A DNA stretch of 45,192 nucleotides from the NCBI GenBank assembly GCA_017460915.1, contig JAFUAA010000030.1, forward strand, positions 1 to 45,192, given 5' to 3'. Positions 15,278 through 32,192 of this stretch are shown here, piece after piece (positions within the stretch are counted from its first letter, which is position 1; each line of letters opens with the position of its first letter). The translations under genes and the position numbers were made by a program. The notes under the pieces are model-generated. The model did not search any database and had not been told where the DNA came from. It was given only the letters and a program-made list of their open reading frames with translations. This DNA is from Bacteroidales bacterium. GTDB taxonomy: Bacteria > Bacteroidota > Bacteroidia > Bacteroidales > F082.

Positions 15278-15296
15278 TAGCATTATTCGTGCCAAA
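15278..15296 (-). promoter_or_regulatory. Sigma-54 (-24/-12) promoter of the 15237 permease unit
   Basis: On the minus strand TTGGCACGAATAATGCTA has GG and GC separated by exactly 10 nt (GG opposite 15293-15292, GC opposite 15281-15280), with the canonical TGGCAC. It lies about 43 nt upstream of the ATG. It has the same layout as the promoter of the tolC-like gene. Confidence 0.82.
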
Positions 15297-15349
15297 ATTG
15301 CAAAACAATATAAATCAACAAGATACAATTTCAACCCCTCTTGAAAAAG

Positions 15350-15385
15350 TGTAAAGATTCTTTACAGGTGTAAAGAAACTTTACA
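15350..15385 (-). promoter_or_regulatory. Paired palindromic upstream activating sites
   Basis: TGTAAAGATTCTTTACA (15350-15366) and TGTAAAGAAACTTTACA (15369-15385) are perfect 7-bp arms around 3 nt, with centres 19 bp apart. They begin 57 bp upstream of the -24 GG, a normal enhancer distance for an NtrC-type activator. Confidence 0.8.
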
Positions 15386-15409
15386 GTCGGCAGCAAACAT
15401 TTCCCGTTA

Positions 15410-16768
15410 TCATTTCAATCCCGTCAAATCAAAATGATAGGTCAGGTCTTCGTTTTTTTCATATTGGAGGAACATAGTCATATAAATGGGCAAATAAACC
15501 AAGCGCTCTTTGACTTGAATGTTCTCTTGACAGAAGACCACCGCCTTCGGAATGGCATATTCTTCGTTACCCATAATGTTGGCGAGCGCACGATGCCGTT
15601 CAAAATCTTTCCCCGACTTCACCTCGATGGGCAACACTTCGCCTTGATGCTCAACCACAAAGTCAAGCTCACCTTGTTTCTTGCTATTGAAATAGAATAG
15701 GTCGTGATCGATGGCGAAACCATGGGCGTAAAGTTCTTGGGCGACCAGATTCTCAAAGGCCGCTCCATAGTTGACATTCAGGTTGTTCAGCAGTCGGACT
15801 TGAATGTCGCCTCCATACATGGCAGCCAACAGCCCCACATCGTTGAGAAACAACTTGAAAAGGTTGCGTTGCTTGTTGAGCAGCAAAGGCATCTTCGGAG
15901 CTTCCACATTGTAGGTCGGAAGAGCTACGCCAGCATCCTTCAGCCAAAGGAAACCGCTCTCGTAGCGGGCAAAACGGGCCTTTTCGCTCAACTCCTTCAG
16001 GATGAAACGCTTGTTCTTGGCATTCAGTTCCGAAGGAATCAAATTATAGATTTCCTCAATCTGAAGTTTGCGCTCTTTCTCATACTTTGTGATGTCACGT
16101 TTGTAGGTTCGGATAATGTCGCGTTGTTCGTTGAGGACATTACGCAAATTATTGGTGTCCAAGTATTTTTGCACTGCGGCCGGCATTCCGCCTACAATCA
16201 TGTAAAGCGTGACCAATTCCAGCATCCGTTGATGGATGAAATTGTCAACGGGCTGTTGCTTTTCATAGCAGTCTTTGAGATGATCCAACACCTCTTCGCC
16301 GATGCCAACGGCTTTGGAAAACTCTTCCAAATCTAGCGGATACATCTCCAACTCACCCATATAGCCCACTGGGACGCTGCGCAAGTCCTTCAATTCAACC
16401 CCAAGGAGAGAACCGCTCATGACATAGCGGTAGCTGCCCTCGTCCACAAGGAACTTGATGGCCGTCACCATCTCGTCGCATTCCTGGACCTCATCGAAGA
16501 AGATGAGCGTCTTGCCTGGAACCAGTTTCCTTCGGATGAATGCCGTGAGGCGCATCAGGATGTCTTCGGCGCTTTTAGGTTGGCTGAACAGTTCCACGGC
16601 GTCAGGCTGCTCGATGAAATTGATTTCGATCACTTGCTCAAAGACCTCTTTGGCAATGGTTCGAATGGTAAAGGTCTTGCCCACTTGTCTCGCTCCAGTC
16701 ACCAACAAGGCACGCTTTTCGTTGGCAAAAAACTCCCTTAGAAAGTTGTATGCTTTTCTGTTTATCAT
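15410..16768 (-). CDS. AAA ATPase with DUF4143 C-terminal nuclease-like domain
   Basis: The start at ATG 16768 (MINRKAYNFLREFFANEKRA) gives 452 residues, the usual length for the AAA_14/DUF4143 family. Walker A is GARQVGKT (25-32), Walker B TLIFFDEVQEC, and YRYVMSGSLLGVELKDL is the sensor-1/loop region. The C-terminal domain carries the PD-(D/E)xK-like residues ELDFVVEHQGEVLPIEVKSG. The family is common in Bacteroidota and archaea, with function unproven; a nucleic-acid-directed nuclease or mobile defence role is often suspected. It is intact and interrupts the efflux locus between two damaged permease regions. Three directly repeated motifs sit upstream. Confidence 0.9.
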   Translation of the reverse strand: MINRKAYNFLREFFANEKRALLVTGARQVGKTFTIRTIAKEVFEQVIEINFIEQPDAVELFSQPKSAEDILMRLTAFIRRKLVPGKTLIFFDEVQECDEMVTAIKFLVDEGSYRYVMSGSLLGVELKDLRSVPVGYMGELEMYPLDLEEFSKAVGIGEEVLDHLKDCYEKQQPVDNFIHQRMLELVTLYMIVGGMPAAVQKYLDTNNLRNVLNEQRDIIRTYKRDITKYEKERKLQIEEIYNLIPSELNAKNKRFILKELSEKARFARYESGFLWLKDAGVALPTYNVEAPKMPLLLNKQRNLFKLFLNDVGLLAAMYGGDIQVRLLNNLNVNYGAAFENLVAQELYAHGFAIDHDLFYFNSKKQGELDFVVEHQGEVLPIEVKSGKDFERHRALANIMGNEEYAIPKAVVFCQENIQVKERLVYLPIYMTMFLQYEKNEDLTYHFDLTGLK

Positions 16769-16789
16769 AAAAACTTGTATTTCAATGTG

Positions 16790-16883
16790 CAAAGATACAA
16801 CTTTTTACATTATCCAAGAAAGAAAGCATACATTTTTTACACTTTTCCAAGGGAATTTTGACGATTTTTGACACTTTTCCAAG
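16790..16883 (-). promoter_or_regulatory. Promoter of the DUF4143 ATPase with three direct repeats
   Basis: The -7 box TATCTTTG is at 16790-16797 (minus). The motif CTTGGAAAAGTGT (minus reading) occurs at 16839-16851 and 16871-16883, with a diverged copy (CTTGGATAATGT) at 16807-16818. The copies are about 32 bp apart, close to three helical turns, and the nearest one overlaps the expected -33 zone. Confidence 0.65.
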
Positions 16884-16885
16884 AT

Positions 16886-17030
16886 TACTCATTCCGTAAC
16901 GATTTCACTGGATTCACCGTGGCTGCACGCAACGAGCGCAAGGTGACCACAGCCACCGTGACACCCAAGACCGCCAGCAGCGCCTAGGCAAACACCCACC
17001 AATGCAGCGTCACGCTGTAGGCGATGGAAG
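16886..17030 (-). pseudogene. C-terminal remnant of an ABC permease
   Basis: The minus strand encodes SVTLHWWVFA, then TAG, then ALLAVLGVTVAVVTLRSLRA and ATVNPVKSLRNE, stop at 16886. This is the last roughly 45 residues of the permease family seen at 18312-20669 and 21766-24183. The TAG stands where the paralogues have Leu (TTG). Sequence above 17030 is not permease-like, so only the tail remains. Confidence 0.85.
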
Positions 17031-17076
17031 TTGGCGCAATTCCCGTAAAAGGAAGGGACTTCCAAACTCAGGTAAT

Positions 17077-17116
17077 AAAAAAGGTGCCCAAATCAAACAT
17101 GACTCAGGCACCTTTA
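17077..17116 (-). terminator. Intrinsic terminator of the 17137-17781 gene
   Basis: On the minus strand AAAGGTGCC (17115-17107) pairs with GGCACCTTT (17088-17080), followed by a T run. It lies just after the lipoprotein stop. Confidence 0.85.
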
Positions 17117-17136
17117 CATTCACAAGAGTATCATTC

Positions 17137-17781
17137 TCACTTGATATACTCTATTTGCATCGAGCAATTGTCGCTTTGACAGCTACATCTTGCTTCGTTC
17201 GTGTAGAAATTGTAAACTTCAACACAATCCTCCGTTGGTTTTGTGCATGACCCCATGCATTTCACGACTACCGTTACAGGAGGCTCTTTTGATTCATTAA
17301 ACTTGGTAACATACAACGCACTCTCAGGACTACCGAAATCGTGATTGATGACATACTCAACCTGAAACACTTCGGCATCATTCAGATAGAACGTCTCAAA
17401 GCAGGTAATCAGATAATCATCTGTGCCGTGGATACGATTCACAAAGTCAGGGAAATGCTTCGCCAATTTTTTGGCATCAGTTTGGGTCTCATGCTTGCCC
17501 TTCAGAGTGGACACACTTCCAATGTGGCCATTGTTGCTGTTCTTAAGCGAACCATCTTCAACGAAGACCATTCCACTTCCATTGCCATCGTCGCTAATGG
17601 CGTACAACCTCATAAACTCAAACTGACTGAGGTTGGTAGAGTCAATCGCTTTAGCGAAAGCTAATGCATTGTCCTTAGTTTCTGCATTGTTCTGGGTTTT
17701 CTTGCATGCCCCAATGCCAAGCATACAAATGACAGCCGCCAACATGGCAGCTGCACAGATTTGTTTTCTTTGCTTTGTCAT
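17137..17781 (-). CDS. Hypothetical lipoprotein with cysteine-rich C-terminus (214 aa)
   Basis: It starts MTKQRKQICAAAMLAAVICM with a lipobox ending LGIGAC followed by KK, a clear lipoprotein signal. The middle (AKAIDSTNLSQFEFMRLYAI, DAKKLAKHFPDFVNRIHGTD) has no domain I recognise. The C-terminal 50 residues carry a cysteine cluster: CMGSCTKPTEDC, then CSCQSDNC, suggesting disulphides or a metal site. It sits between permease remnants, has its own promoter and terminator, and is intact, so it appears to be a separate transcription unit inserted in, or spared within, the decaying end of the efflux locus. Confidence 0.78.
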   Translation of the reverse strand: MTKQRKQICAAAMLAAVICMLGIGACKKTQNNAETKDNALAFAKAIDSTNLSQFEFMRLYAISDDGNGSGMVFVEDGSLKNSNNGHIGSVSTLKGKHETQTDAKKLAKHFPDFVNRIHGTDDYLITCFETFYLNDAEVFQVEYVINHDFGSPESALYVTKFNESKEPPVTVVVKCMGSCTKPTEDCVEVYNFYTNEARCSCQSDNCSMQIEYIK

Positions 17782-17824
17782 AATAACTCATTTTTTAATT
17801 ATGTACTCAATATCAAGTACGCTG

Positions 17825-17832
17825 CAAAAATA
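17825..17832 (-). promoter_or_regulatory. -7 box of the cysteine-rich lipoprotein gene
   Basis: TATTTTTG on the minus strand fits TAnnTTTG, 44 nt upstream of the ATG at 17781. The surrounding 17830-17900 is an A/T homopolymer-rich stretch. Confidence 0.5.
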
Positions 17833-18017
17833 ACAAAAAAAACGAAATAAAAAAAGAAAAAAATGCATTTTTATAAAAAAAAGCGGATTTTTATAAAGGA
17901 TGAATTCAATTTGTATTCTTTGTCTATTGGAGAAAAAGTCACTTATTCACTTGATTCCGTTATCGTTAAGATCAGGGAATGAAGACGCATTGGACAAGTA
18001 TTGCCATAGGTTCTCAT

Positions 18018-18136
18018 TCAATTTCTCGTTGGCGCAGCGACACCATGGCGAAGAAGAAGTTGACGAAGGCGATGGAAACGACGAAGCCAATGGCTTCGAT
18101 GGCGGTGAAGAACTTGTTTCTTGACAGGAATTTCAG
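18018..18136 (-). pseudogene. Chimeric N-terminal remnant of an ABC permease
   Basis: The minus strand reads LKFLSRNKFFTAIEAIGFVV then SIAFV followed directly by NFFFAMVSLRQREIE and a stop at 18018. The first part is the N-terminus of the 13130/28186 permease type. The second is the TM2 segment (INFFFAMVPIRLRN) of the 21766 type. The start codon is missing; TAA stands in its place at 18139-18137. The junction falls at ATCGCCTTC plus TCAAC, shared by both parents. From 18140 to 18300 I see only the repeat at 18170 and a GTTGTTGaatt-type leader. Confidence 0.8.
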
Positions 18137-18169
18137 TTAAGCAGATGAGCAAATTCAGTTTACATATTG

Positions 18170-18230
18170 GACGCGAGACACGAGACTTCCGTTTTTCAAG
18201 GAATAAAAGTTCCGCGTCCCGTGTCAAATC
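18170..18230. repeat. GACGCGAGAC/GCGTCCCGTGTC inverted repeat element
   Basis: GACGCGAGACACGAGACTTCC (18170 onward) faces a partly complementary arm with CCGCGTCCCGTGTC (about 18212-18226). It shares its decamer with the cluster at 10610-10643. Confidence 0.5.
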
Positions 18231-18311
18231 ATTATGCAGTTTAATTTTGAACAGTTACTTAGCTGCTCATTGTTGTTGATCGTTGAATTGTTGTTGGCTA
18301 TAGCCAATGGC

Positions 18312-20669
18312 CTATTCATTCCGTAACGACCGCACCGGATTCACCGTGGCCGCCCTCAGGCTCCGCAAGGTGACCACTCCCACCGTGACGGCCAGAACCG
18401 CCAGCAGCGCCAAGGCGAACACCCACCAATGCAAAGGCACCTGATAGGCGAAGCCCTCCAAATAACGCCGCATAATGACGATGCTCAACGGCACAGCAAT
18501 CACGAAGCAGGCCAGCACAATCTTCACGAAACGCGAGTTGAACATCGACAGGATCTGGCCCACCGTGGCGCCGTGCACGCGGCGGATGCCGATTTCCTTG
18601 CGGCGGTGCTCCGTCTCGAACATCACCAAGTCGAACACACCCATCAGCGAGATGACGATGGCCAACACCGTGAACAAATTCACCAACTTGGAAAGACTTT
18701 GCTCATTATTGTATTGGCTCTCAATGGTTTGCGAGAAAGGTTGCACTTCGTATGACATCCCTTCGCCCAAGTCGGGGTCGAGGTCGTTGAGGGTCTTGGT
18801 GATGCGTTCCATCAAGGCGGGGACATCCACGCCGGCCTCAGTGCGGATGAACAGCCTTTGGCAAAGCCGACCTGGATCCTTGCCGGCAACATAAAAGGCA
18901 AACGGCATAATGCTTTGGCGCAGTGAGGCAAAGTTGAAATCCTTGCAGAAGCCAGCCACCCCTACGGGTTGGTCGTGCCATCCTCCAATTTGGTCCTCAA
19001 GAGTGATATTAAACGCATCACGCGCCGCTTCATTGAAGATATACACGCCATCCGACTGCTCGTCGGCTTCGGTGAAATCGCGGCCTTCCACGATGTCAAT
19101 GCCCATAAAACGCAGGAAGTTCCACGAAACGGGATAGACCTGCCAACCGGCTTCTTCGCCACGCACTCGCCGCCCCCAACTCATTCGTGAATCACGCACA
19201 AATGCGCTGTCGCCCCAAGCAATGTCCTTGATGGCGGCATCGGCAAGCAACTGACTCTCAACGGCTTCGCGGTCAGCGGCAAGGTTCCACGACACCTGCG
19301 ACTGCAACAGACATTCCTGATTGAAACCCATTTCGTGGTTCATCATATACAGGCGTTGCTCATGGACGAATATCGCACAGATAATCAGCACGATGGACAC
19401 GGTGAATTGGAAGCCAATCAAGCCAATGCGGAAGGCCTTGCCCTTTTGGGTGGTGCCGAGTGTACCCTTCAGGGCGAAAGCGGGATTGAACGAGGTGGCG
19501 AACAAGGCCGGATAGAGGCTCGCCGCAACGGAAATGAACAAGCCCGAGCCGACAACCAAGGCGACAAGGCCCCAGTTTTGGCTGAAATCGAGCGAGGTGT
19601 CAATCAGCGAAGCCAAAGTGGATTGGTGGAACAGCGTGACTACGGCCACGGCCAAACCCAAGGCGAGGACGACCATCGTCACCGACTCGCCAACGAACGA
19701 CATCACCAATTGGAAACGGCTGCTGCCCAATATCTTGCGCGTGTTGATGTTGCGCAGGCAGACGGGCACCATCGCGAAAAAGAAGTTGATGTAGTTGATG
19801 AAGGCAATGACCACCACGAGAATGGCGATGACGAGCAAGGTCATCGTCGTGGTCTTGTTGCCCGACTTGCCAACGGGGACGCCATCGACGGGGAAAAACA
19901 TATCCGTCAGCAATATCGGAGGAATCCAAGATGTAACCTCATCGTCATTGGCCGCAGGGTTGTTTGCCTCTATCAGAAACTGCCGCCAGAAAGGTTTCGA
20001 AATCTCATCGATTGCATCGGGGTCGGCACCCTTGCGAAGTTTCACGAAGTAATGGGAAGAGAACTCTTTCCAATCGTCGATGAAACGGTCACCATAGTTG
20101 TAAATCATATCGAAAGTGCCGAGGTCGCTGTTGAGAGGCATATCCTTGTAAATAGCCACCACGGTGGCATCGCTCCATACCGTTCCGGCTTCGTACTGGA
20201 AAGCGTCGCCCACTTGCAGCCCGAACCGCTTCGCCGCCGATCCAGAGAGGGCACAGGCTTCGCGCATCCAGTCATCCCAACTGCCAGAGACGAGTTCGAA
20301 GCCGAACACTTCGATGGTTGGCAGCGTGAAACGCGCCATTGCAGCCTCAACCAGCGGCTGGTCGCTGCCCAGACGAATGTTCCGATATTCGCCATCAAGG
20401 TCGGCATAGCCACCCACTTCGATGTCGGGCGAATTGGCGACCACTGCTTCGCCGATGGGGCGGCTGAGAAAAGGCATATACCCAGTATATCCTTTTGCTT
20501 TCTGTGCAAGGCAATAGATGCGATCGCTGTCCTTGAGTGCCTTGTTGTAGGTGAGGTCGTGGCGCACCTACACGAGGATGATATAGAGCGCGGCGAAGGC
20601 GGCGGTGAGACCAAGCACATTGAGCACCGACGACGCGAAGGTGGTTTTTCCTTTTTTGAATAATCGCAT
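18312..20669 (-). pseudogene. FtsX/MacB-like ABC permease with an early amber codon
   Basis: The family start is ATG 20669 (MRLFKKGKTT), matching the paralogue at 24183. TAG at 20570-20568 replaces the Gln of LYIILVQVRHDL, at about codon 34, inside or just after the first membrane helix. The rest (751 residues) is open to 18312 and has the full double-domain layout: NFFFAMVPVCLRNINTRKIL after TM2, the central TM3-TM5 block, a second periplasmic domain, and RRKEIGIRRVHGATVGQILS near the C-terminus. A GTG follows the stop, so a truncated product lacking TM1 is possible in principle. The last part is roughly 90% identical in DNA to the 21766 gene, so this is a recent duplicate. Confidence 0.85.
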
Positions 20670-20749
20670 TGTTGTTGAATTGTTGATTAACCACGTTGAA
20701 TTTTCGATTTGTTGAATTGTTGTTGACTATGGCCAATAGCCTATGACTA

Positions 20750-20798
20750 TGGCAGCTTCATTAGAAGGGAGAGTTTCCAACCTGGGTTGAAGCGGCCA
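20750..20798. repeat. Dispersed inverted-repeat element, copy 1
   Basis: TGGCAGCTTCA (20750-20760) faces TTGAAGCGGCCA (20787-20798) across about 26 nt. Related copies lie at 30583-30632 and 41037-41087. Flanks on both sides are runs of ATGGCCAATAGCC-like words. Confidence 0.7.
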
Positions 20799-20825: not shown

Positions 20826-21509
20826 TCAAAGTTGCGACAGTACTTCCTCCACGACTTTACCGTCGAAGAGGTTGATGATGCGGTCGGCGTAGCCGGCGTC
20901 GCGCTGCGAGTGGGTCACCATCACGATGGTGGTGCCTTCCTTGTGGAGGTCGGTGAGCAGGTCCATCACCTCGCGGCCGTTTTTCGAATCGAGGTTACCC
21001 GTAGGCTCGTCGGCGAGGATGAGCTTCGGGTTGGCGACCACGGCACGGGCGATGGCCACGCGCTGCTGCTGACCACCGCTCAACTGCTGCGGGAAGTGGT
21101 CCTTGCGGTGACGGATGTCCATACGCCCCAAGATGGCATCGACACGCTCCCTACGCTCGGCGGCGGGGATGTTCATATAGCGCAGCGGCAGTTCGATGTT
21201 CTCGTACACATTCAACTCGTCGATGAGGTTGAAGCTTTGGAACACAAAGCCGATGTTACCCTTGCGGAACTGGGTGCGGTCCTTCTCCTTGAGGTCGCCG
21301 ACCTGCTGCCCGAGCAGTTCGTAGTTGCCCGAGGTGGGGTTGTCCAAAAGGCCGAGGATGTTGAGCAAAGTGGACTTGCCGCAGCCCGAGGGGCCCATAA
21401 TGGCGACAAACTCGCCTTCGTTGATTTCGAACGAAACACCGTTCAGTGCAGTGGTTTCGATTTCTTCCGTGCGGAAGACCTTTTCTAGATTTTCTGTTTT
21501 GATCATCAT
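20826..21509 (-). CDS. ABC transporter ATP-binding protein (MacB/LolD-like)
   Basis: This 227-residue stand-alone ATPase has Walker [10 protein letters not shown] (39-47), the Q loop (VFQSFNL), the ABC signature LSGGQQQ (143-149), Walker B LILADE (163-168) with D loop GNLDS, and the H loop VTHSQ. Length and motifs match the LolD/MacB/FtsE group. It is the only ABC ATPase in the efflux locus, so it presumably energises every intact permease here (21766, 24196, 28186) by mechanotransmission from the cytoplasmic face. It lies between two closely related permeases, separated from each by repeat-containing gaps. Confidence 0.95.
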
Positions 21510-21765: not shown

Positions 21766-24183
21766 TCATTCATTCCGTAACGATTTCTCTGGATTCACCG
21801 TTGCCGCACGCAGGCTCCGCAAGGTGACCACGCCCACCGTGACGGCCAGAACCGCCAGCAGTGCCAAGGCGAACACCCACCAATGCAACGGAACACTGTA
21901 GGCGAAGCCCTCCAGATAGCGCTTCATAATGACCACGCTCAATGGCACGGCAATCACAAAGCAAGCCAGCACAATCTTCACGAAACGGGAGTTGAACATT
22001 GACAGAATCTGCCCCACCGTGGCGCCATGCACGCGGCGGATGCCGATTTCCTTGCGGCGGTGCTCCGTCTCGAACATCACCAAGCCGAACACGCCCATCA
22101 GCGAGATGACGATGGCCAGCAGCGTGAACAAAGTCACCAACTTGGAGAGGTTTTGTTCTTTCTTGTATTGGCTTTGCAGCGTTTGGTCGAAAAGCTGCAC
22201 GTCGTAATCCTCGGCGGCGATGTCGGGGTCCAACTCGTTCAAGATGGTTTGGATGCGCTTCATCACGGCGGGAACGTCAACGCCAGCCTCGGTGCGGACA
22301 AAAAGCTGCATGCAAGGCCGCCACGGTTTCTTGCCGAAGACATACAAGGCAAACGGCCCAATCTCGTTGCGCAAGGCGGAATAGTTGAAGTCCTTGCAAA
22401 TCCCTGCCACCTCGGCCAAACCGTTGGTATGACCCTGAATCTGGTCGCCCAAATGAATGTCATACATCTTCTGAGCCGTCTCGTTGAGAATGTACACGCC
22501 ATTTTCCGATTGCTCGTCGGAAGGGGTGAAATCGCGCCCCTCGGCCAATTCGATGCCCATGAAATCCAAGAAGTTCCACGAAACGGGATAGCATTGCCAA
22601 TGCACCTTGCCGCCCTTGAAATCACGGTTCCAGCCCATGCGCTCGTCCTTGATAAACGGACCGTCGCCCCAAGCCAGGTCCTTGATGGCGGCATCGGCCT
22701 TGAGACGGTTTTCGGCAGCTTCGTGTTCCAAGTAGCCTAATTTCGCCGTGGTCATCACCGTGAGCAGTTGTTCCTTGTCGAAGCCCATGTTGCGGTTGAG
22801 CATGAACTGGCACTGCTCGCGAATGAATATCGCGCAGATAATCAGCACAATGGACACGGTGAACTGCAAGCCAATCAAGCCGATGCGGAAGGCCTTTCCC
22901 TTTTGGGTGGTGCCCAATGTACCCTTCAAAGCGAAAGCGGGATTGAACGAGGTGGCGAACAAGGCCGGATAGAGGCTAGCCGCAACGGAGACCAACAAGC
23001 CCGAGCCGACGGTCAAGGCGACGAGGACCCAGTTTTGGTTGAAATCCAAGGTGGTGTCAATCAGCGAGGCCAAGGTGGACTGCCTGAACAGCGTCACGGC
23101 GGCCACGGCCAAACCAAAGGCGAGGACGACCATCGTCACCGACTCGCCCACAAACGACATCACCAACTCGAAACGGCTGCTGCCCAAGATCTTGCGCGTG
23201 TTGACGTTGCGCAGGCGTATCGGCACCATCGCGAAGAAAAAGTTGATGTAGTTGATGAAGGCGATGACGACCACTGCAATGGCGATGGACAGAAGGGTCA
23301 TCGTCGTGGTGCGGTTGCCCGTCTTGCCCGATGCGTTGATGTTAGGGGCGAAATACATGTCGGTGAGTTTCATCAGGTGGAGTTTGATGTTGCTGATGGC
23401 CTCGTCCCATTGGGCCAATTCCTCCTCCGAAAGCGAAGTGGGGTCAACGCCGTTCATGCGCATATTAGCCTCCTTCATGGCAGGTTTGGCGGCCTCGTCG
23501 AAAGCCTTGGGGTCAGCGCCTTCGCGGAGTTTCACGAAATAGTTGTAGCCCCATTCACTCCAATTCTCCAAGCCCTCTTTGCCGATGTTGTAGAACAAAT
23601 CGAAAGTGGCGCAGTCGCTGTTGGCGGGCATGTCCTTATAGATGGCGACGATGTTGGCGTCTTCAATCGAGATGCCGCGCCAGTCCTGCTTGCGCAGCTT
23701 GGCCACATCGCCCACCTGCACGCCGAGGCGCAGGGCCGCCGATTCCGAGATGGCGTAGGTGATGCCGTTGATCCAGTCGTCCCAGTTGCCAGCGACGAGT
23801 TCGATGCCGAACACATCCCTGCCGCCCTCGCTGAAGGCCCCGATTCTGACGCTCATCTGCCGATTGTCTTCGAGGATGATGTGGGCGGTCGCGCAGTTCT
23901 TGCCCACATAGGCGCAGCCGCCAGCCTCCACATCGGGCGAAGCCGCTATCACCGCCTCGGAAATCGGGCGGCAAATCCAACTTGATGCGCCATAGTCGGC
24001 AAACTGGTCGCCGACCATCATACAATAAATTCGTTCGCTGTCCTTGAGCGCCTTGTTGTAGGACAGGTCGTGGCGCACTTGCACGAGGATGATGTAAAGC
24101 GCCGCAAAGGCGGCGGTGAGACCGAGCACATTGAGCACCGACGACGCAAGCGTGGTTTTCCCTTTTTTGAATAGTCGAGTCAT
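21766..24183 (-). CDS. FtsX/MacB-like ABC transporter permease (805 aa)
   Basis: The protein starts MTRLFKKGKTTLASSVLNVL with TM1 (LGLTAAFAALYIILV), followed by the conserved VRHDLSYNKALKDSERIY and a large periplasmic domain. A central membrane block (LLSIAIAVVVIAFINYINFF, RKILGSSRFELVMSFVGESV and two more helices) leads to another start-like helix and a second periplasmic domain. The C-terminal three-helix unit has RRKEIGIRRVHGATVGQILS and ends PEKSLRNE. This double MacB_PCD-FtsX layout is typical of Bacteroidota multi-permease efflux loci. It is intact and very close to the broken 18312-20669 copy. The periplasmic parts differ most between the two. Substrate unknown. Confidence 0.93.
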   Translation of the reverse strand: MTRLFKKGKTTLASSVLNVLGLTAAFAALYIILVQVRHDLSYNKALKDSERIYCMMVGDQFADYGASSWICRPISEAVIAASPDVEAGGCAYVGKNCATAHIILEDNRQMSVRIGAFSEGGRDVFGIELVAGNWDDWINGITYAISESAALRLGVQVGDVAKLRKQDWRGISIEDANIVAIYKDMPANSDCATFDLFYNIGKEGLENWSEWGYNYFVKLREGADPKAFDEAAKPAMKEANMRMNGVDPTSLSEEELAQWDEAISNIKLHLMKLTDMYFAPNINASGKTGNRTTTMTLLSIAIAVVVIAFINYINFFFAMVPIRLRNVNTRKILGSSRFELVMSFVGESVTMVVLAFGLAVAAVTLFRQSTLASLIDTTLDFNQNWVLVALTVGSGLLVSVAASLYPALFATSFNPAFALKGTLGTTQKGKAFRIGLIGLQFTVSIVLIICAIFIREQCQFMLNRNMGFDKEQLLTVMTTAKLGYLEHEAAENRLKADAAIKDLAWGDGPFIKDERMGWNRDFKGGKVHWQCYPVSWNFLDFMGIELAEGRDFTPSDEQSENGVYILNETAQKMYDIHLGDQIQGHTNGLAEVAGICKDFNYSALRNEIGPFALYVFGKKPWRPCMQLFVRTEAGVDVPAVMKRIQTILNELDPDIAAEDYDVQLFDQTLQSQYKKEQNLSKLVTLFTLLAIVISLMGVFGLVMFETEHRRKEIGIRRVHGATVGQILSMFNSRFVKIVLACFVIAVPLSVVIMKRYLEGFAYSVPLHWWVFALALLAVLAVTVGVVTLRSLRAATVNPEKSLRNE

Positions 24184-24195: not shown

Positions 24196-26538
24196 TTAAT
24201 TGTTCTTCAATGATTTCACTGGATTCATCCGCGCGATGCGCTCGCTGCAAAGCACCACCACGACCGTCACGACGAGAAGGACAGCCACGGCACCAATGAT
24301 GAAATAGAGCGGCGACAAGGCGATGCGCTCGGCAAACTGCTCCAGCCATTTGTGGGCCGCAAAGTAGGTAGCCACGCAAGCCAGCACCGCCATCACCGAG
24401 GCGAACTTCAGCACATCGGAAACGAACACCTTGAGGACATCGGCCGCCGTCGCACCATTGATTTTGCGGATGGCCATCTCCTTGCTCCTTCGGTTCGACT
24501 CGTCGCGGACAAAGCCAATAAGCCCCACCACGGCAATCAGCAGGGCGAAGATGGAGCCGATGGCCACGGTGTTGCGCATCTTGCGGTTGCCGTCGTAGGC
24601 CGAACTCATTTTGTCGGCGTAGGCGTGCAACTGCACCTCTTTCCCGTCAAGGGCTTCGGAAACGACAGCGGTCAGTTTTGCCATCGTGGTCTCGTCCATT
24701 TTGTTCACCTTGAATAGGATATGCGGCATAAAGGACACGCCGTCGTCCAAACTGCCGTAAAAACGCACGCTCGGGCGGGTGTCCATACTCACGAGGCTGC
24801 CGATACGGATGTCGCGATAGACGCCAGTGATGGTGAAAGGGAAAAGTCCCATTCCGTCCCTGCCGTGACCAGTTATCTGCACCTGCTTCCCCACCGCGCC
24901 GTCGCTCCAGTCGGCGAAGTCGGCCATCCGTTTCACGAAACTCTCGCTCACCACCAATTCAGTGGAATCGGCGGGCGCGCGACCGTCCACAAACTCCATC
25001 CCAAAAAGGTCGTAGAAACCCGTCGTGGCTTCGTATTGGTCGGCCACATTGAACAGTTCGCGGTCGTCGCCGGGCAGATAGACATTGTCGCCACTCGCGC
25101 GTTGATAAGGCAGGTCATAACTCGCAGCGATATGCGTCACCTTCGGCACTTGCCCAAGGGCATCCACCACACGCTGTTGGGCAGCTTGGTTTCTGTCGTA
25201 CATATCCACAAACAGCACATTCTCATAATCGTAGCCTGGGTCGTCGTTCATCATTCGCCGATATTGCGAGGCAATCACCAGCAGCATCGACACGATGAAG
25301 ACATTGATGAACACCTGAACGCCAAGCAGTCCGATTTTCCAGCGACGCGAGTTCTCGGTGTAGTTGCGGAACGCCACCGAAACGGGAATGCGCATAAAGA
25401 GTTGCGTGGGCACAAAGACCGAAACGAGCAACACGAAGAGCAGCACCGCCCCGATGACCCACAGGCTTTGCGGGACGAGCAAATCCTCAAACGGCACGGC
25501 CACCAACTGCTCGATGAGGCCACGCGCGGCAAAGATGATGGCCGCCGACAACGCCAAGGCCAACAGCAGGTGCATCGAGGCCTCGCGCGCCAACAAGGTA
25601 TGGATGTTGAACGCACTCGCGCCATAGCACTTGCGCACCCCGATTTCCTTCGCCCGCCGCACCATCGACGAGATGACAACGAGGACATAGTTCAGCAAAC
25701 TAATGAGAATCAACAGTGTAGCCACAATCGTAAGCAAAAGCACCATCGAGCGCACCGAAGTGTCTTCCAAGTGAGACTTGCCGAAAAGCGAAAGATAATA
25801 CTTCAGGCTCATTCCATTCTCTTCCCACTCCTCCAAAGGCTGATGTGCCTCCTGCATCTTGCGGATGGCGACATCAAGCAATTGAGGGTCAACGCCTTGC
25901 TGCAATTTCACGAAAGCCTTGTAACGGTCGTTGCCGTTCCAGTTTTCGGTGCTGGTTTTGGAGTAACTCACCATCGACAGCAGCATATCGGCATCGAAAG
26001 AGCCGTTTTTCGGGAAGTCCTTGAACACGCCTTCGATGGTCATTTTCAACTCGGGGACATCTTCGTTGCAGATGGTTCTGCCGATGCATTCCTCCACGCC
26101 GCCGAGTTTGTTGGCGAAGGATTCCGACACCATCAGGCACAGCGGCTTGGCAAGCACCGTGGCGGGGTCGCCGACCAAGATGGGCTGGTCGAAGACCTTG
26201 AAGAAACACGAGTCGGCCAAACGGAAATTGCCCGTGATGACACGGCCATCTTCGTCCAAATAACGGTCGTTGCTGAAATAAAAAGTGATGCGCGTGGCTT
26301 CCTCCACGCCTGGCACCTCGGCCTTGAAGCCCGGGGCCACCGCGCCGCTCACTTGTGGGAAGTCATGGGCCTCGCCTTGCCGTTCATAGTTCGTTTTGAT
26401 GCAGTAGATGCGATCCACATCCTTGTAGAAACTATCGTAGGACAATTCAAAGCACGCCTTGGCAATCAGCACAATGCCGATGGCGAGACCTATCCCGAGG
26501 GAGAGGATTTTGCTGAGGTTATCGGTTAATTTGTTCAT
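24196..26538 (-). CDS. FtsX/MacB-like ABC transporter permease (780 aa)
   Basis: It starts MNKLTDNLSKILSLGIGLAI with TM1, then ELSYDSFYKDVDRIYCIKTN as the periplasmic start. Central helices surround VVISSMVRRAKEIGVRKCYG, and a second half ends with SNRRSKEMAIRKINGATAAD and IARMNPVKSLKNN. It is the most divergent of the intact permeases in the locus. Its stop lies 12 nt from the start of the 21766 gene, so the two are co-transcribed and may form a hetero-permease pair with the single ATPase; that pairing is inference. About 315 nt of repeat-rich sequence separates it from the adaptor gene upstream. Confidence 0.93.
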   Translation of the reverse strand: MNKLTDNLSKILSLGIGLAIGIVLIAKACFELSYDSFYKDVDRIYCIKTNYERQGEAHDFPQVSGAVAPGFKAEVPGVEEATRITFYFSNDRYLDEDGRVITGNFRLADSCFFKVFDQPILVGDPATVLAKPLCLMVSESFANKLGGVEECIGRTICNEDVPELKMTIEGVFKDFPKNGSFDADMLLSMVSYSKTSTENWNGNDRYKAFVKLQQGVDPQLLDVAIRKMQEAHQPLEEWEENGMSLKYYLSLFGKSHLEDTSVRSMVLLLTIVATLLILISLLNYVLVVISSMVRRAKEIGVRKCYGASAFNIHTLLAREASMHLLLALALSAAIIFAARGLIEQLVAVPFEDLLVPQSLWVIGAVLLFVLLVSVFVPTQLFMRIPVSVAFRNYTENSRRWKIGLLGVQVFINVFIVSMLLVIASQYRRMMNDDPGYDYENVLFVDMYDRNQAAQQRVVDALGQVPKVTHIAASYDLPYQRASGDNVYLPGDDRELFNVADQYEATTGFYDLFGMEFVDGRAPADSTELVVSESFVKRMADFADWSDGAVGKQVQITGHGRDGMGLFPFTITGVYRDIRIGSLVSMDTRPSVRFYGSLDDGVSFMPHILFKVNKMDETTMAKLTAVVSEALDGKEVQLHAYADKMSSAYDGNRKMRNTVAIGSIFALLIAVVGLIGFVRDESNRRSKEMAIRKINGATAADVLKVFVSDVLKFASVMAVLACVATYFAAHKWLEQFAERIALSPLYFIIGAVAVLLVVTVVVVLCSERIARMNPVKSLKNN

Positions 26539-26885: not shown

Positions 26886-26887
26886 CA

Positions 26888-28159
26888 TTAAAACACTAAC
26901 ACATCGCTGTCCCCGAAGTTATCATACGACGAAACAATCACCTTCTCGCCAGCCTCCAGGCCTTCCACGACCTCGTAATACTGCGGGTTCTGTCGCCCAA
27001 TCTTGATGTCGCGCTTCACGGCCTTGGTGCCGTCCTTCGTGACCACATAAATCCACTTGCCGCCCGTCTTTTGGTAGAACGCGCCACGCGGCACGAGCAC
27101 CGCCTCCACGGGCTGACCGAGTTGCAGGTTGAGGTAATAGGTCTGGCCGCTGCGGATGTTGTCGGGCTGCGCGTCGGCAAACTTGAAGTCGGCCTTGAAC
27201 TTGCCATCGCGCACCTCGGGATACACTTTGCGAATTTGCGCCTGATAGCGCTCGCTCTGCCGCTCGAAGGTGGCCTTCAAGCCCGCCGTGACGCGGTCGA
27301 TGTAGTGTTCATCGATCTGTGCCTCAATCTTGTAACTGTCGAGGTTGTTGATTTGCCCGATTTTGGTGCCCGCGCCCACCGACTGACCCAGGACGACATC
27401 GAGCAAGCCCAGTTCGCCGTTGATGGGCGCCTTGATGGTGAGGTTTTCCTTGTGGTGGCGGATCATCTGCATATTGAGGCGCATATTGTCGAGGCTCTCG
27501 CGCATCTGCGTGATTTCCACCGAGCGGTAGAGGCTGTCCTGCTTGGCGCGGTTCTCCACCAGTTGGAGGCGGTTGTTGGAGAGTTGGTAGTCCTCCTCGG
27601 CTTTCAGGAAGTCCTCGCGGGCGATGAGGCCGTCGTCGTAGAGGGCCTTCTGCGCCTCATAAGTACGACGGTTGCGGCGCACATCCATCTGCAGTTGCAG
27701 TTTCTCCTGTTGCAGCGTCAGTTTCTGTTGTTCCATCTGGATCATCGTGTTGCGCAGGATGTTCTCCTTCTCGGCCAGCTCGGCCTCGGCGTTGAGGATT
27801 TGCATATCGAGGTTCTCGTTGCTCAAGATGAGGATGACATCGCCTGCGCTGACGCGGATGCCTTCCTCGGCCACGATTTGCTGCACCACGCCGCCTTCCA
27901 ACGGGCTGATTTGGACGGTGGTCATCGGGGCCACCTGACCGCTGATGCGGATGTAGTCGTTGAACTCGGCCCAAATCGCCGTCCCGACGGTGATGTTGTC
28001 AGCATCGACGCGGAGTTTCTTCGAGTCGTCGCGCAGGACGAGCCAGAGGATGAAGATGAGGAGCAAGCCTCCCAGCCAAAACGGGATGGCTTTCTTGGTG
28101 AAGGCACGACGAATGCCTTTTTTCTTTTCGATTCTACGGTCCATTGTGTTTGTTTCCAT
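26888..28159 (-). CDS. HlyD/MacA-like periplasmic adaptor of the efflux system
   Basis: This 423-residue protein has an N-terminal cytoplasmic tail rich in Lys/Arg and one membrane anchor (FWLGGLLLIFILWLVLR). The first lipoyl half (GGVVQQIVAEEGIRVSAGDV) is followed by a long coiled-coil hairpin (about 120-225, with EQQKLTLQQEKLQLQMDVRR) and the second lipoyl half (LTIKAPINGELGLLDVVLGQ). Then come a beta-barrel with the EAQIDEHYIDRVTAGLKATF segment and a membrane-proximal domain (GLEAGEKVIVSSYDNF). Such adaptors link an inner-membrane ABC permease to a TolC channel. It starts 26 nt after the 28186 permease and is the only adaptor in the locus. Confidence 0.94.
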   Translation of the reverse strand: METNTMDRRIEKKKGIRRAFTKKAIPFWLGGLLLIFILWLVLRDDSKKLRVDADNITVGTAIWAEFNDYIRISGQVAPMTTVQISPLEGGVVQQIVAEEGIRVSAGDVILILSNENLDMQILNAEAELAEKENILRNTMIQMEQQKLTLQQEKLQLQMDVRRNRRTYEAQKALYDDGLIAREDFLKAEEDYQLSNNRLQLVENRAKQDSLYRSVEITQMRESLDNMRLNMQMIRHHKENLTIKAPINGELGLLDVVLGQSVGAGTKIGQINNLDSYKIEAQIDEHYIDRVTAGLKATFERQSERYQAQIRKVYPEVRDGKFKADFKFADAQPDNIRSGQTYYLNLQLGQPVEAVLVPRGAFYQKTGGKWIYVVTKDGTKAVKRDIKIGRQNPQYYEVVEGLEAGEKVIVSSYDNFGDSDVLVF

Positions 28160-28185
28160 ATTCTAAAGATTTAAAATTCAAAGAT

Positions 28186-30522
28186 TCATTCCTTTTGTAA
28201 AACATCCACCGGATTGGTCTTCGCCGCACGAAGCGTCTGCCAAAGCACCGAGCCGAAGGCCATCACGAAGGCGATAAGCACGGCCAGGACGAAAATCCAG
28301 CCGTAGTGCTCCAGTTTGACGATGAAGCCCTCAAGGTAGCGTTGCGCCGCCCAAACCGCTATCGGCACGCCGATGACGCAAGCCACGCCCACCAGCAGCA
28401 TATATTCCTTCACGCTGCGCCAAGTCTCGCTCTGCACCGTGCCACCAAACACCTTGCGCACGGCGATGCTCTTGGCGTTCTCGCTCGCGTAGTAGGTGCT
28501 CATCGCGAGCAGGCCGAGCAGCGAAATCAGCACGGCGAGCAGCATAAAGATTTCCAAAAGGCGCATATTGTTCTTGGCGGGCTTCAGCGCGTCGCGGTAG
28601 AAGTTGTCGATGTAGTCGTCGGCGCTGACCCAAAAACTGGTGCCTTTGCCCCAATTGTCCACCACCTCGCGGATGGCTTTGCGCGCCTCTTTTTGGTCGC
28701 CCGTGGTCTCGATGAGGAAACCTGCATATTGTCCGCCCCAGCCGATGTCCTCTGGCTTCATCACACTGACCACGATGTACTCCTCCTCGCCCATGTTGCT
28801 CCGATTGACGTGGAAGTCGCGGATGACGCCTCCAACTTGTTCACAGCCAATGGTTCTCTGCGACAAGGTCTGGCTGATATCGTGGAAGTCATCATCAAAA
28901 CCCGTGGCGGAAAAGGCGGCCTCGCCAAACCACGCCGAGTTGAACACAGGCGCACCATAATCACTTACCTTCTCAAAACCAAGCATTTGGAATGCAATAG
29001 TATCCATACGGAACATTCGATAGGCAATCTCCGCACCATCGCGGGTAAGGCTATACTGACCATAGCCTGGCCATCCTGGAACGCCTTTGCAAGCGCCCAT
29101 CCGCTTCACGCAGGGCAGTTGCTCCAGCGCATCGCTCAAGGCCTCTCTTGTCTGGAAGCCGAACACGTCCAAGTAAAGCAAATCCTTTGTGTTGCAGTGC
29201 ATTGGGCGTTTCATCGAAATGCGGTATTGCGCCTCCATCACGAAAGCCATCGCGATGAGGAAGACCGCGAGGGCGTTTTGTATGATGATGAACACCTTGT
29301 TAAACAGCATCTTCGTGTTGCGGCGGAAGGTGCCTTTCACCACATCGATGGGCTGCACGCGACTAGCAAACCACGCGGGAATGATGCCATTGAGCACGCC
29401 AAGCACCACAATGACTGCGAGATAAGCCAACAGATATTGCGGCTTCATCTGGATGGTGATGGGCACATCGGGGTCGTTGAGCAAGGCATTCACCGAGGGC
29501 GCCAAGGCGTAGGCCAACAGCAGCCCAAGCGCGAAGCACGCCGCCGTAAACGCCAGCGATTCAGCCACATACTTCCACATAATCTCCCACTTCTGCGCCC
29601 CGAGCAGTCGGCGCGTGGCCATCTCCTTGGCGCGTTTCCCCGTGAGGGCAAACGAGAGGTTGATGTAGTTGAACACCGCCGAAAGCAGCAACAGCAGCCC
29701 TACGAGGGCCAAGAGTTTCAAGGTCTTAAGGTCGCCATGGCGGGTTTGGTCGTTGGGGCGGTCGTATTCCTTGAAATACAGTTGGTCGAAGCGGCTCATT
29801 TCCAACTTCTTGAAGAACGCCTGACCATAAAAATCGGGGTAAATCTCCTTGCAGACGGACTCCACCTTGTCGTAAATCACTTGCGGGTCGGTGCCTTCGG
29901 CGAACTTCGCAAAGGTGATGGCCGAGCCGTAATGGTCGTAAGGGTCTTCGTAGGAAACCCAGTTGATGGGGTCGCGCTCGTTGACAATCAGGTCGGCGAA
30001 GTTGAAGACCGTCTTTTGGTCGCTGGCGAGGATGCCCGTGATGACATATTCGCTGTTCAATGCGTTTTTGATGGTTTGGCCCAATTTGAGGTCGTATCTC
30101 CGTGCAAAGTCCTCTGTAACAATGACATTCGAAAGCGACTCAAGGCCTTCGGGACCGCCTTCCGCAAAGCGCAGATACGGAAACATCGTGAAGAAATCCT
30201 TGCCCACGGCGTTCACCGTGACATTGACTTTTTCCTCGCCAACAGGCACCGTCGAGGCCATACCGTCGCAATAGCGCACGGCCATTTCCACCTCGGGGAC
30301 GCGGCTGGCGATTTCGTCGGCGAAGGCCCAAGTCAGGCCGAGGTAGTCGGGCATTCCAAAGGTGTAGATGTTTTTTCGGTCTGGGCTTTCGCGCGTGATG
30401 CTGTACTGCTGCCACGCATAGCTGCCGATGATGATGACGAAGGCCAAACTGACGGCCAGTCCCACCGCCTCAATGACGGTGTAGAGTTTGTTTCTGCTTA
30501 AGAATTTGAGGTAAGTTTTCAT
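28186..30522 (-). CDS. FtsX/MacB-like ABC transporter permease (778 aa)
   Basis: It starts MKTYLKFLSRNKLYTVIEAV with TM1, has a periplasmic domain beginning after QQYSITRESPDRKNIYTFGM, and central helices around INLSFALTGKRAKEMATRRL. A second unit starts at RNTKMLFNKVFIIIQNALAV, and the end reads NAKSIAVRKVFGGTVQSETW ... RAAKTNPVDVLQKE. It is the intact representative of the type found damaged at 13130-15237 and as a chimeric scrap at 18018. It lies between the tolC-like gene and the adaptor gene in the promoter-proximal position. Substrate cannot be inferred from the sequence. Confidence 0.93.
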   Translation of the reverse strand: MKTYLKFLSRNKLYTVIEAVGLAVSLAFVIIIGSYAWQQYSITRESPDRKNIYTFGMPDYLGLTWAFADEIASRVPEVEMAVRYCDGMASTVPVGEEKVNVTVNAVGKDFFTMFPYLRFAEGGPEGLESLSNVIVTEDFARRYDLKLGQTIKNALNSEYVITGILASDQKTVFNFADLIVNERDPINWVSYEDPYDHYGSAITFAKFAEGTDPQVIYDKVESVCKEIYPDFYGQAFFKKLEMSRFDQLYFKEYDRPNDQTRHGDLKTLKLLALVGLLLLLSAVFNYINLSFALTGKRAKEMATRRLLGAQKWEIMWKYVAESLAFTAACFALGLLLAYALAPSVNALLNDPDVPITIQMKPQYLLAYLAVIVVLGVLNGIIPAWFASRVQPIDVVKGTFRRNTKMLFNKVFIIIQNALAVFLIAMAFVMEAQYRISMKRPMHCNTKDLLYLDVFGFQTREALSDALEQLPCVKRMGACKGVPGWPGYGQYSLTRDGAEIAYRMFRMDTIAFQMLGFEKVSDYGAPVFNSAWFGEAAFSATGFDDDFHDISQTLSQRTIGCEQVGGVIRDFHVNRSNMGEEEYIVVSVMKPEDIGWGGQYAGFLIETTGDQKEARKAIREVVDNWGKGTSFWVSADDYIDNFYRDALKPAKNNMRLLEIFMLLAVLISLLGLLAMSTYYASENAKSIAVRKVFGGTVQSETWRSVKEYMLLVGVACVIGVPIAVWAAQRYLEGFIVKLEHYGWIFVLAVLIAFVMAFGSVLWQTLRAAKTNPVDVLQKE

Positions 30523-30582
30523 ATTGTTGAAGTGTTGAATTGTTTAAATGTTGAATTGTTGGTCAAACTATGGCCCATGACT

Positions 30583-30632
30583 ATGGCAGCTTTAACTAAA
30601 GGTATGGAGTACATTTTTTCGTGAAGCTGCCA
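30583..30632. repeat. Dispersed inverted-repeat element, copy 2
   Basis: TGGCAGCTTTA (30583-30593) faces TGAAGCTGCCA (30622-30632). It lies between the tolC-like gene and the next permease gene, within the same transcript, so it would form a stem-loop in the mRNA. Confidence 0.7.
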
Positions 30633-30649
30633 GAGGCCATAAGCCATGG

Positions 30650-32053
30650 TCATTGTAATAAATACGGCGTTCCCCCATAATAAGTTACAACGCTGTTTTT
30701 AATAAAGTATTGAAGCCTCGCGTTCAATTGTTCCGCCAAGGCGTTGAGGTAGTTGTTCGATGCGGTTTGGTACTCGATGGACGAAATCAAGCCCTGCTCG
30801 AACTGCTTGGCATTCAGCGTATAGGCTTCCTGCTGCAACGAGGCGCGGGCCTCGGCCTGAAGCAAGGCATCGGCGGTGCCGTCGCGATCGGCCACGGCGC
30901 GGCGCACCTCAGCCTCGACGGTCTGAAGCGTCTGCTCATACTCGGCTTGGGCGCGCTCATAGACGTTCTTTTTCTTCGCGATGTTGGAATGTGACGAAAG
31001 GCGGTCAAAAATGGGGATGCTCAGCGAGAGCTGGATGTATTCGCCTCCGTTGTTCTTGATTTGGTCCATAAAGGGTGTAGGCACATAGTCTTCCCGCCCC
31101 GGATAGGTGAAATAACTCGACGACCAGCCACCATAAAGCGCCAGCGTGGGCAGCAATTGCCAACGCGCCGTTTTCAGCGATAGGCGGGCGTTTTTCATCC
31201 GGCCTTCGGCCAAAAGGATCGAGGGTGTGTTGGTTTTGGCAAATGACAACAATTGCGAAATTTCTTCCGATTCATCCATTCGGCTGCCACGGTGTGACAG
31301 CCCTACAGCCGTTTCGTTTGTAGGGCTGTCGCATTGCGGCAGCTGCGAAAACGATTCATCAATTTTCAACGGCACCTCAATCGGCCAAAACATCACATCC
31401 TTCAGGGTGATGAAAGCGTTGGCGAGGTTGTTGCGGCAGGTGGTCAGTTGGTAATGACGGTCGGCGAGGTCAGCCTGCATCTGCACCACGTCGGCGTGCG
31501 ACTTCTGGCCCAGTTGTTCCTGTCGCTCGGCTCGTTGCACGGCTTTTTCCGCTGTCGCCACTTGGTTTTGCAGGGCTTTCTCCAATTCGTTGTAATACAA
31601 CACATTGCAGTACACCTCCATCGTGGCGAGGCAGATTTGGTCCTCCAGTTGTTGCGCTTGGGTCAAGCCCATCAGTTGCGCGGTCTTGGTGATTTTCAGG
31701 TTGTTCACTGCCTGAAAACCGTTGAAGAGGTACATCCCCGCCGAGAGGCTGTAGCCGTTGTGGAACGAGGTCGTCCGGATGTAGGTGTTGGTCTCGGGGT
31801 CGATGCTGCGGCCGAAGTTGGAATAGGCGTAGGTGCTGCCGCTCACCTGCGGCGTGAAGGCGGAGAGGATGGCGTCGCGGCGGTCGATTTGCGCGTCGCG
31901 GTTGTCGGCCTCTTGGATGCGCACCTTCGTGGAATGCTCCACGGCATAGCGCATACACTCTTTCAGGTTCATCGTGACGGTGTCCTGCGCCGACAGCGAA
32001 GCCACGGCAAGGAAAAAGACGGAAGTCAGGGTAAGGATTCGAGTTGCTTTCAT
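30650..32053 (-). CDS. TolC-like outer membrane efflux protein
   Basis: This 467-residue protein has a signal peptide (LTLTSVFFLAVASLSAQD), then the TolC family start MNLKECMRYAVEHSTKVRIQ, repeated helical hairpins (YNELEKALQNQVATAEKAVQ RAERQ-type), the second OEP repeat with SILLAEGRMKNARLSLKTAR, LYGGWSSSYF, YIQLSLSIPIFDRLSSHSNI, and the closing EAYTLNAKQFEQGLISSIEY. It should form the trimeric outer-membrane exit duct. A palindromic DNA element (31283-31343) is embedded in frame and adds about 20 residues (DSPTNETAVGLSHRGSR) in the inter-repeat region. It is the first gene of the efflux operon, behind a sigma-54 promoter. Confidence 0.94.
   Translation of the reverse strand: MKATRILTLTSVFFLAVASLSAQDTVTMNLKECMRYAVEHSTKVRIQEADNRDAQIDRRDAILSAFTPQVSGSTYAYSNFGRSIDPETNTYIRTTSFHNGYSLSAGMYLFNGFQAVNNLKITKTAQLMGLTQAQQLEDQICLATMEVYCNVLYYNELEKALQNQVATAEKAVQRAERQEQLGQKSHADVVQMQADLADRHYQLTTCRNNLANAFITLKDVMFWPIEVPLKIDESFSQLPQCDSPTNETAVGLSHRGSRMDESEEISQLLSFAKTNTPSILLAEGRMKNARLSLKTARWQLLPTLALYGGWSSSYFTYPGREDYVPTPFMDQIKNNGGEYIQLSLSIPIFDRLSSHSNIAKKKNVYERAQAEYEQTLQTVEAEVRRAVADRDGTADALLQAEARASLQQEAYTLNAKQFEQGLISSIEYQTASNNYLNALAEQLNARLQYFIKNSVVTYYGGTPYLLQ
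31283..31343. repeat. 61-nt palindromic element inside the tolC-like coding sequence
   Basis: Two 25-nt arms (31283-31307 and 31319-31343) pair with four mismatches, three of them clustered, around an 11-nt loop. The distal 13 bp of each arm (GACAGCCCTACA and its complement) are perfect. The reading frame passes through without a stop. The element is like REP/RPE-type palindromes that can sit in genes. Confidence 0.8.
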
Positions 32054-32085
32054 ACTTTACACATATTTAAATTATGCGTAGGGGA

Positions 32086-32104
32086 TGGCATATCTCGTGC
32101 CAAA
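32086..32104 (-). promoter_or_regulatory. Sigma-54 (-24/-12) promoter of the efflux operon
   Basis: On the minus strand TTTGGCACGAGATATGCCAT has GG and GC exactly 10 nt apart (GG opposite 32101-32100, GC opposite 32089-32088) and the canonical TGGCAC. It lies about 35 nt upstream of the tolC-like ATG. Confidence 0.85.
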
Positions 32105-32156
32105 TTTGCAAACAATTAAAAATCAAATAATTGCAAAATCTCGCCTTTCAAAAAAG

Positions 32157-32192
32157 TGTAAAGTTTCTTTACAGGTGTAAAGAAACTTTACA
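32157..32192 (-). promoter_or_regulatory. Paired palindromic upstream activating sites of the efflux operon
   Basis: TGTAAAGTTTCTTTACA (32157-32173) and TGTAAAGAAACTTTACA (32176-32192) have perfect arms and centres 19 bp apart. They start 56 bp from the -24 GG. The second site is identical to the one at 15369-15385. Confidence 0.82.

Follow-up and report, generated by a model that had tools for sequence, protein, structure and literature searches.

The 45,192-nucleotide contig JAFUAA010000030.1 (Bacteroidales bacterium, GTDB lineage F082, assembly GCA_017460915.1; the whole stretch is called the window below) carries two minus-strand promoters of the sigma-54 type, each preceded by a pair of palindromes, and a gene for an NtrC-type response regulator. 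The palindrome pairs very probably serve as enhancers of this regulator, encoded at 9241-10593, through which it would control a single envelope-transporter regulon. The window is contig C78 of genome G000 (2.98 Mb, 95.67% complete, 79 contigs), and its central elements are as follows.

15280 to 15294, minus strand: permease-unit promoter (promoter 1), sigma-54-type -24/-12, TGGCACGAATAATGC, GG-N10-GC
32088 to 32102, minus strand: tolC-operon promoter (promoter 2), sigma-54-type -24/-12, TGGCACGAGATATGC, GG-N10-GC
15350 to 15385: putative enhancer pair 1, TGTAAAGATTCTTTACA-GG-TGTAAAGAAACTTTACA, palindromes at 15350-15366 and 15369-15385
32157 to 32192: putative enhancer pair 2, TGTAAAGTTTCTTTACA-GG-TGTAAAGAAACTTTACA, palindromes at 32157-32173 and 32176-32192
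9241 to 10593, minus strand: NtrC-type response regulator, 450 amino acids, with Response_reg, Sigma54_activat and HTH_8 domains, a GAFTDA loop and the recognition helix ISRPTLY
8387 to 9244, minus strand: sensor histidine kinase, 285 amino acids, overlapping the regulator stop, with a matching start in the sister genome G066

Both promoters, at 15294-15280 and 32102-32088, contain TTGGCACGA and keep the GG-N10-GC spacing, as a preliminary description of this DNA had claimed, and each departs from the consensus TGGCAC-N5-TTGC at one position. Its account of the palindromes was equally accurate: all four paired copies read exactly TGTAAAG-N3-CTTTACA, the centres lie 19 bp apart in both pairs, and the nearest palindrome base is 57 bp (15.3-kb promoter) or 56 bp (32-kb promoter) from the first G of the -24 GG. 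Allowing up to three mismatches, the window holds five palindromes, all exact (shuffle mean 1.5, with 3 of 100 shuffles reaching five), and these are the only five exact copies in the whole genome. The idea that AT-rich palindromes fall near TGGCA strings by chance draws on two genome-wide counts: single sites with at most two mismatches are not enriched (14 versus 22 for the reversed pattern), and -24/-12-like strings with at most two mismatches are abundant (1895 and 1778 per strand; control 1406 and 1457). The signal therefore lies in the exact sites, their pairing and the fixed promoter distance. Reversed controls for pairs and modules were zero throughout, which rules out a chance origin for these and leaves that idea a negligible probability.

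The arrangement recurs well beyond the window. Defining a module as TGTAAA-N5-TTTACA twice (spacer 2-5) with GGCA-N7-TGC at 50-58 bp, we found it complete in 60 of the 173 family genomes, all of them in the window's genus (60/99), and the reversed pattern in none of the 173. Exact pairs gave 117 orientation rows, each site being counted in both directions, and there are 57 distinct exact-pair sites across all loci of the final set. TTGGCA lies 40-75 bp downstream in 51 of the rows; in this sample, which is not random since its loci were mostly chosen for a regulator or a pair, the proximal palindrome stands 51-54 bp from TTGGCA in 49/51 rows and the distal palindrome end 72-75 bp from TTGG in 48/51. 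The preliminary description had named random placement of the pairs relative to sigma-54 promoters as an outcome that would count against it, and the placement is not random. The spacer between the palindromes runs from 2 to 6 bp in exact-pair rows, 4 and 5 being most frequent, so the 19-bp centre spacing is the window lineage's own version. An apparent restriction of the sites to two genomes was an artefact of too strict a pattern (spacer 2, arms TGTAAAG), and a search demanding GC at -12 missed promoters that have GT or GA there in some relatives.

Across the order, pairs alone occur in 12/393 genomes, seven of them outside the genus and spread over four families (reversed control 0). We read 8 of the 18 sites outside the genus; seven precede genes for OEP/TolC (one), MacB/FtsX permeases (four), an ABC ATPase (one) or a CarboxypepD-type outer-membrane protein (one). 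The site in G325 lies directly upstream of an NtrC-type regulator gene; so does one of the permease sites, in G515, where that gene is divergent. Neither of these two sites shows a TTGGCA promoter towards the regulator.

Within the window genome, a third pair and promoter, overlooked by the preliminary description, lies at G000:C12:4934-5039 with the geometry seen in the window. The pair (4934-4969), through whose palindromes this target was found, has three mismatches and is followed by TGGCATGGAGATTGC at 5025, at the same promoter distance. The DNA between pairs and promoters had been described as unrelated, which was wrong: the two window spacers are identical at 38 of 56 aligned positions, a value that none of 500 shuffles reached. 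The C12 spacer matches that of the 32-kb promoter at 42/56 positions (0/500 shuffles as high) and that of the 15-kb promoter at 34/56 (1/500). The similarity of the window spacers would fit a recent duplication of the promoters, whose identical geometry would then reflect copying and not selection. Against this, the distance is the same across lineages with different spacers (38 promoters when collapsed at 80% identity), and it is retained when the palindrome itself becomes TGTCCA, as described below. Conservation across lineages largely refutes duplication as the sole cause of the shared geometry, and we hold it very unlikely.

Aligning the spacers of 61 promoters (38 after the collapse) revealed a conserved symmetric element.

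15301 to 15325, minus strand: putative IHF-like symmetric element 1, YAANNNNTTGATW overlapping WATCAANNNNTTR, between enhancer and promoter 1
32109 to 32133, minus strand: putative IHF-like symmetric element 2, between enhancer and promoter 2

In the 38 promoters, the half-site YAANNNNTTGATW lies at -31 from the T of TGGCA with its mirror at -19, and the mean half-site scores are 6.61 (-31) and 6.16 (-19) of 9, with 0/1000 shuffles as high; the IHF consensus was sought only after the alignment had been viewed. The reference was the E. coli IHF consensus; a match to it stands between enhancer and promoter, where occupancy is predicted. Since the conserved element is symmetric, it would suit a homodimeric HU/IHF-like protein.

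To ask which protein reads the palindromes, we sorted the 99 genomes of the genus on the closest match each has to the window regulator, with class limits set after viewing the match table. Class A has the window-type regulator (61 genomes, including four partial proteins in G112, G114, G123 and G134), class B a regulator 50-57% identical to it (16), and class C no ortholog at the cut-off (22). The TGTAAA module occurs in 49/61 genomes of class A (28/33 of those at least 90% complete), 0/16 of class B and 11/22 of class C. The co-occurrence of site and regulator that the preliminary description had put forward as a check is thus seen in the comparison of 49/61 genomes having the window-type regulator with 0/16 of the divergent class. 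Carrying some NtrC-type activator is by itself no predictor of the site: every family genome (173/173), siteless ones included, has a match to the window regulator with E 1e-60 or better.

A de novo look at class B promoters found TGTCCA-N5-TGGACA pairs upstream at unchanged distance. Allowing up to three mismatches, such pairs occur in 9/173 genomes: 8/16 of class B, 0/61 of class A, 1/22 of class C and 0/74 of the other genera, with a control of 0. The pattern was derived from G044 and G085; leaving these two aside, the blind part of this result is six of 14 class B genomes. The 13 promoter rows listed have TTGGCA at 51-53 bp, all having been selected for TTGGCA 45-60 bp away. Ten proteins downstream of these promoters are, by Pfam, three OEP/TolC factors, four MacB/FtsX permeases and three ABC ATPases, a set that excludes L225; in L219 and L220 no open frame was found. 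In G052 (C4 110-170), two TGTCCA-type pairs overlap to give three palindromes in a row.

The alternative that another DNA-binding protein, either a repressor or a different NtrC-type activator, binds the palindromes and that the neighbouring regulator is incidental has some footing: the window genome has two further strong Sigma54_activat matches, seven module genomes have neither a window-type regulator nor a fragment of one, and binding by the regulator is predicted from sequence. It is at odds with the tracking of regulator class by site type in both directions (TGTAAA and TGTCCA), with the location of pairs beside regulator genes of this type in other families, and with the regulator match at E 1e-60 or better in siteless genomes. 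We consider it improbable. The reciprocal TGTCCA result and the pairs that sit just before the regulator gene in two further families tie the site to the window-type regulator and not to another protein. The assignment of the putative enhancers to the 9241-10593 regulator, already made in the preliminary description, is therefore well supported as a prediction by class co-occurrence, the reciprocal sites and adjacency elsewhere.

The recognition helix differs between the classes, reading RPTLY in window-type regulators and RQTLY in class B (5 of 16 read). Wherever an exact TGTAAA pair and a full match to the regulator share a locus, the helix reads RPTLY; L203 has a pair too, but there the matching protein, a relative with 37.7% identity, is cut off ahead of the helix-turn-helix (HTH). 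Across 104 regulator loci, TGTAAA pairs with at most two mismatches occur in 24/40 with RPTLY and 2/64 with other helices (exact pairs, 20 and 0), and the reversed-pattern control gave 0. This set excludes short duplicates (L036-L063, L024, L034, L035), L025, L203, loci shorter than 3.5 kb, and L185 and L186, whose sites are identical to those of L202 and L195. On a tree of 87 regulators built with the HTH columns removed, RPTLY requires at least four changes, and the site follows the helix in two to three of three independent contrasts and opposes it in none.

Further site types came to light. The RTTLY-type regulator loci L117, L123 and L113 carry a third type, approximately TGTWNA...TGWACA. 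A de novo palindrome search of the named and distant loci returned six matches, comprising four TGTAAA pairs and the candidates L157 and L159; at L157 7557 and L159 5448, where related regulators have RAALY or RSAFY, the palindrome pairs are of a quite different kind (TTCCC...GGGAA; GTCCCATTAATGGGAT) and lie upstream of sigma-54-like sites.

Several observations weigh against reading the pairs as enhancers of this regulator or against a simple match of helix to site. The module is present in the 11 class C genomes without a detected ortholog; four of these hold fragments of window-type regulators, three at contig ends, and the other seven, including G116 (97% complete), hold none and are unexplained. 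Conversely, the exact module is absent from 12/61 class A genomes, five of them at least 90% complete, and 16 of the 40 RPTLY loci have no near pair in the DNA examined, which exceeded 10 kb in 12 of them. The RQTLY loci L105 and L177 carry near-TGTAAA pairs (two mismatches); in L105, from a Muribaculaceae metagenome-assembled genome (MAG), the pair stands before a sigma-54 site (9842-9933, minus strand) and breaks the simple helix-site rule. Ten independent site contrasts on the tree comprise two with the helix, none against it and eight without a helix difference, and the sign tests are underpowered, with too few helix contrasts to reach 0.05. In neither L185 nor L186 did a TTGGCA promoter appear on the side of the pair that faces the regulator. 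Finally, searches of the G000 assembly with PF04552 and PF04963 found no rpoN.

Each of 21 other genomes searched has one rpoN. In G066 (L215) the genes run sppA, asnS, rpoN and a kinase, and a comparison of this 12-kb stretch with G000 matched sppA-like sequence (82%), the left edge, close to a contig end, and some short repeats; neither asnS nor rpoN was matched. Since the adjoining asnS is also unmatched, the absence of rpoN from G000 is probably an assembly gap. Just before rpoN in G066, an element of ~72 bp (L215 4895-4970) is an interspersed repeat with whole or partial matches at 27 places on many contigs of G000.

The regulator and kinase are present at one locus, as had been claimed. 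In the regulator, PF00072, PF00158 and PF02954 all exceed the gathering score, giving the receiver, sigma-54 AAA+ and Fis-type HTH domains of NtrC/ZraR/AtoC-type regulators. Its best NCBIfam match is the PEP-CTERM response regulator TIGR02915, and it stays under the curated cut-off of each of the best 25 of 72 families; its closest named relatives come from MAGs of uncultured rumen and gut Bacteroidales. The sigma-54 contact loop reads GAFTDA in 121 of 142 regulator copies (overlapping loci counted) and GSFTDA in 14, with three others and four in which none was found; on these counts, GAFTDA is a conserved variant of the GAFTGA loop. Classical NtrC-family sigma-54 systems have enhancers, and IHF between enhancer and promoter. 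The window resembles them in its paired palindromes upstream of -24/-12 promoters with an IHF-like element between, but differs in its loop (GAFTDA, not GAFTGA), in its site (TGTAAA-N5-TTTACA) and in its kinase, where reading by eye shows one short hydrophobic stretch at the N-terminus and no evident periplasmic domain. Sensing via the membrane or a transporter is therefore possible.

The candidate targets in the window, and a fifth palindrome, are these.

30650 to 32053, minus strand: TolC-type outer-membrane factor (PF02321)
28186 to 30522, minus strand: MacB/FtsX-type (ADOP-like) permease
26888 to 28159, minus strand: periplasmic adaptor of HlyD/RND_mfp type; best NCBIfam match DarC, under the cut-off
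24196 to 26538, minus strand: MacB/FtsX-type permease
21766 to 24183, minus strand: MacB/FtsX-type permease
20826 to 21509, minus strand: ABC ATPase; best NCBIfam match DarD, under the cut-off
18312 to 20567, minus strand: MacB/FtsX-type permease
11871 to 15237, minus strand: two permease genes under promoter 1, frames interrupted; single frames of 813 and 787 amino acids in G066
32944 to 32960, no strand given: single exact palindrome, the apparent remnant of a third window enhancer pair by comparison with G066

An outer-membrane factor, an adaptor, MacB/FtsX permeases and an ABC ATPase thus stand together, the components of a tripartite ABC exporter. The run resembles MacAB-TolC and DarBCD exporters in joining an outer-membrane factor, an HlyD-type adaptor, a MacB/FtsX permease and a LolD/DarD-like ATPase, but it scores under the DarB, DarC, DarD and MacB cut-offs and has several permeases per locus. 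Against the NCBIfam cut-offs of the darobactin exporter proper, the bit scores are 57.1/700 for DarB, 190.6/450 for DarC and 291.4/375 for DarD. These genes look like MacB/FtsX (ADOP, DarBCD-like) tripartite exporters. The preliminary description had the regulator driving the tolC-like operon and the permease unit; promoters and pairs are in place for both, but the permease genes at 15.3 kb are broken up over several reading frames in this genome, whether by true breakage or by assembly error.

The C12 promoter lies upstream of a gene for a protein of outer-membrane type with CarboxypepD-regulatory and TonB-plug domains (Pfam). In G066, whose regulator is 95-96% identical to that of the window, pairs and promoters precede tolC, the permease pair (the permease-unit promoter element is also present, L031 9921) and a DUF2807 gene; two more lie on another contig, one of them before a CarboxypepD-domain outer-membrane protein (L033 7296-9593). 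The term efflux regulon used previously is therefore roughly right, but the targets extend to CarboxypepD-type outer-membrane proteins and, in G066, to the DUF2807 protein. The unpaired palindrome at 32944-32960 had been overlooked. Its G066 counterpart is a full pair with a sigma-54 promoter and the DUF2807 gene; the left flank is common to both genomes and divergence begins right after the first palindrome. By this comparison the window genome has apparently lost the DUF2807 target and kept half an enhancer as a remnant.

We envisage the following mechanism. When a signal arrives, the 8387-9244 kinase would phosphorylate the regulator. Two regulator dimers would occupy the palindromes, about 80-116 bp upstream of the start, and the regulator would assemble its ATPase ring. 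The intervening DNA would bend, possibly with the help of an HU/IHF-like protein on the conserved element, and at the promoter the ring would open sigma-54 polymerase. The resulting regulon would comprise the TolC-permease-adaptor-ATPase run, the permease pair (broken here), the CarboxypepD/TonB-plug protein and, in G066, the DUF2807 protein. The regulon likely serves the export of, or defence against, membrane-active compounds, a guess from the type of transporter.

Permeases of COG0577 (MacB/FtsX) have been predicted as sigma-54 targets in Bacteroidia, Gammaproteobacteria and Opitutia with a promoter matrix (PMC12316311, PLoS One 2025); the accessible part of that report names no activator or enhancer for them, and we propose both, together with a switch of site and non-permease targets. 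In Clostridiales, groups of enhancer-binding proteins have been matched to DNA motifs by comparative genomics (PMC6615313). That approach is like ours, but the phylum and functions differ, and the portion available to us mentions no export systems. In the open-access literature searched, we found no activator or enhancer of the window type named and little on sigma-54 regulons of Bacteroidales. The link from sigma-54 to COG0577 permeases in Bacteroidia had thus already been predicted, and the activator, enhancer sequence, geometry and target genes are new proposals. They concern uncultured, mostly ruminant-gut bacteria and can be tested in vitro without culturing the host.

The more interesting part of the finding is the paired change of regulator and enhancers. 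We see an even chance that these loci form a natural series of rewired enhancers, in which a regulator and its regulon's enhancers changed recognition together within a single genus while promoter distance, spacer element and targets stayed fixed. The pairings would be RPTLY with TGTAAA and RQTLY with TGTCCA, and perhaps RTTLY with TGTWCA in other groups. If true, the series would yield, for Fis-type HTH activators, a recognition code that can be read, along with a conserved, symmetric site of bending suited to an HU/IHF-like homodimer, and the two site classes in one genus would constitute a natural experiment on the joint change of a regulator and several dispersed enhancers.

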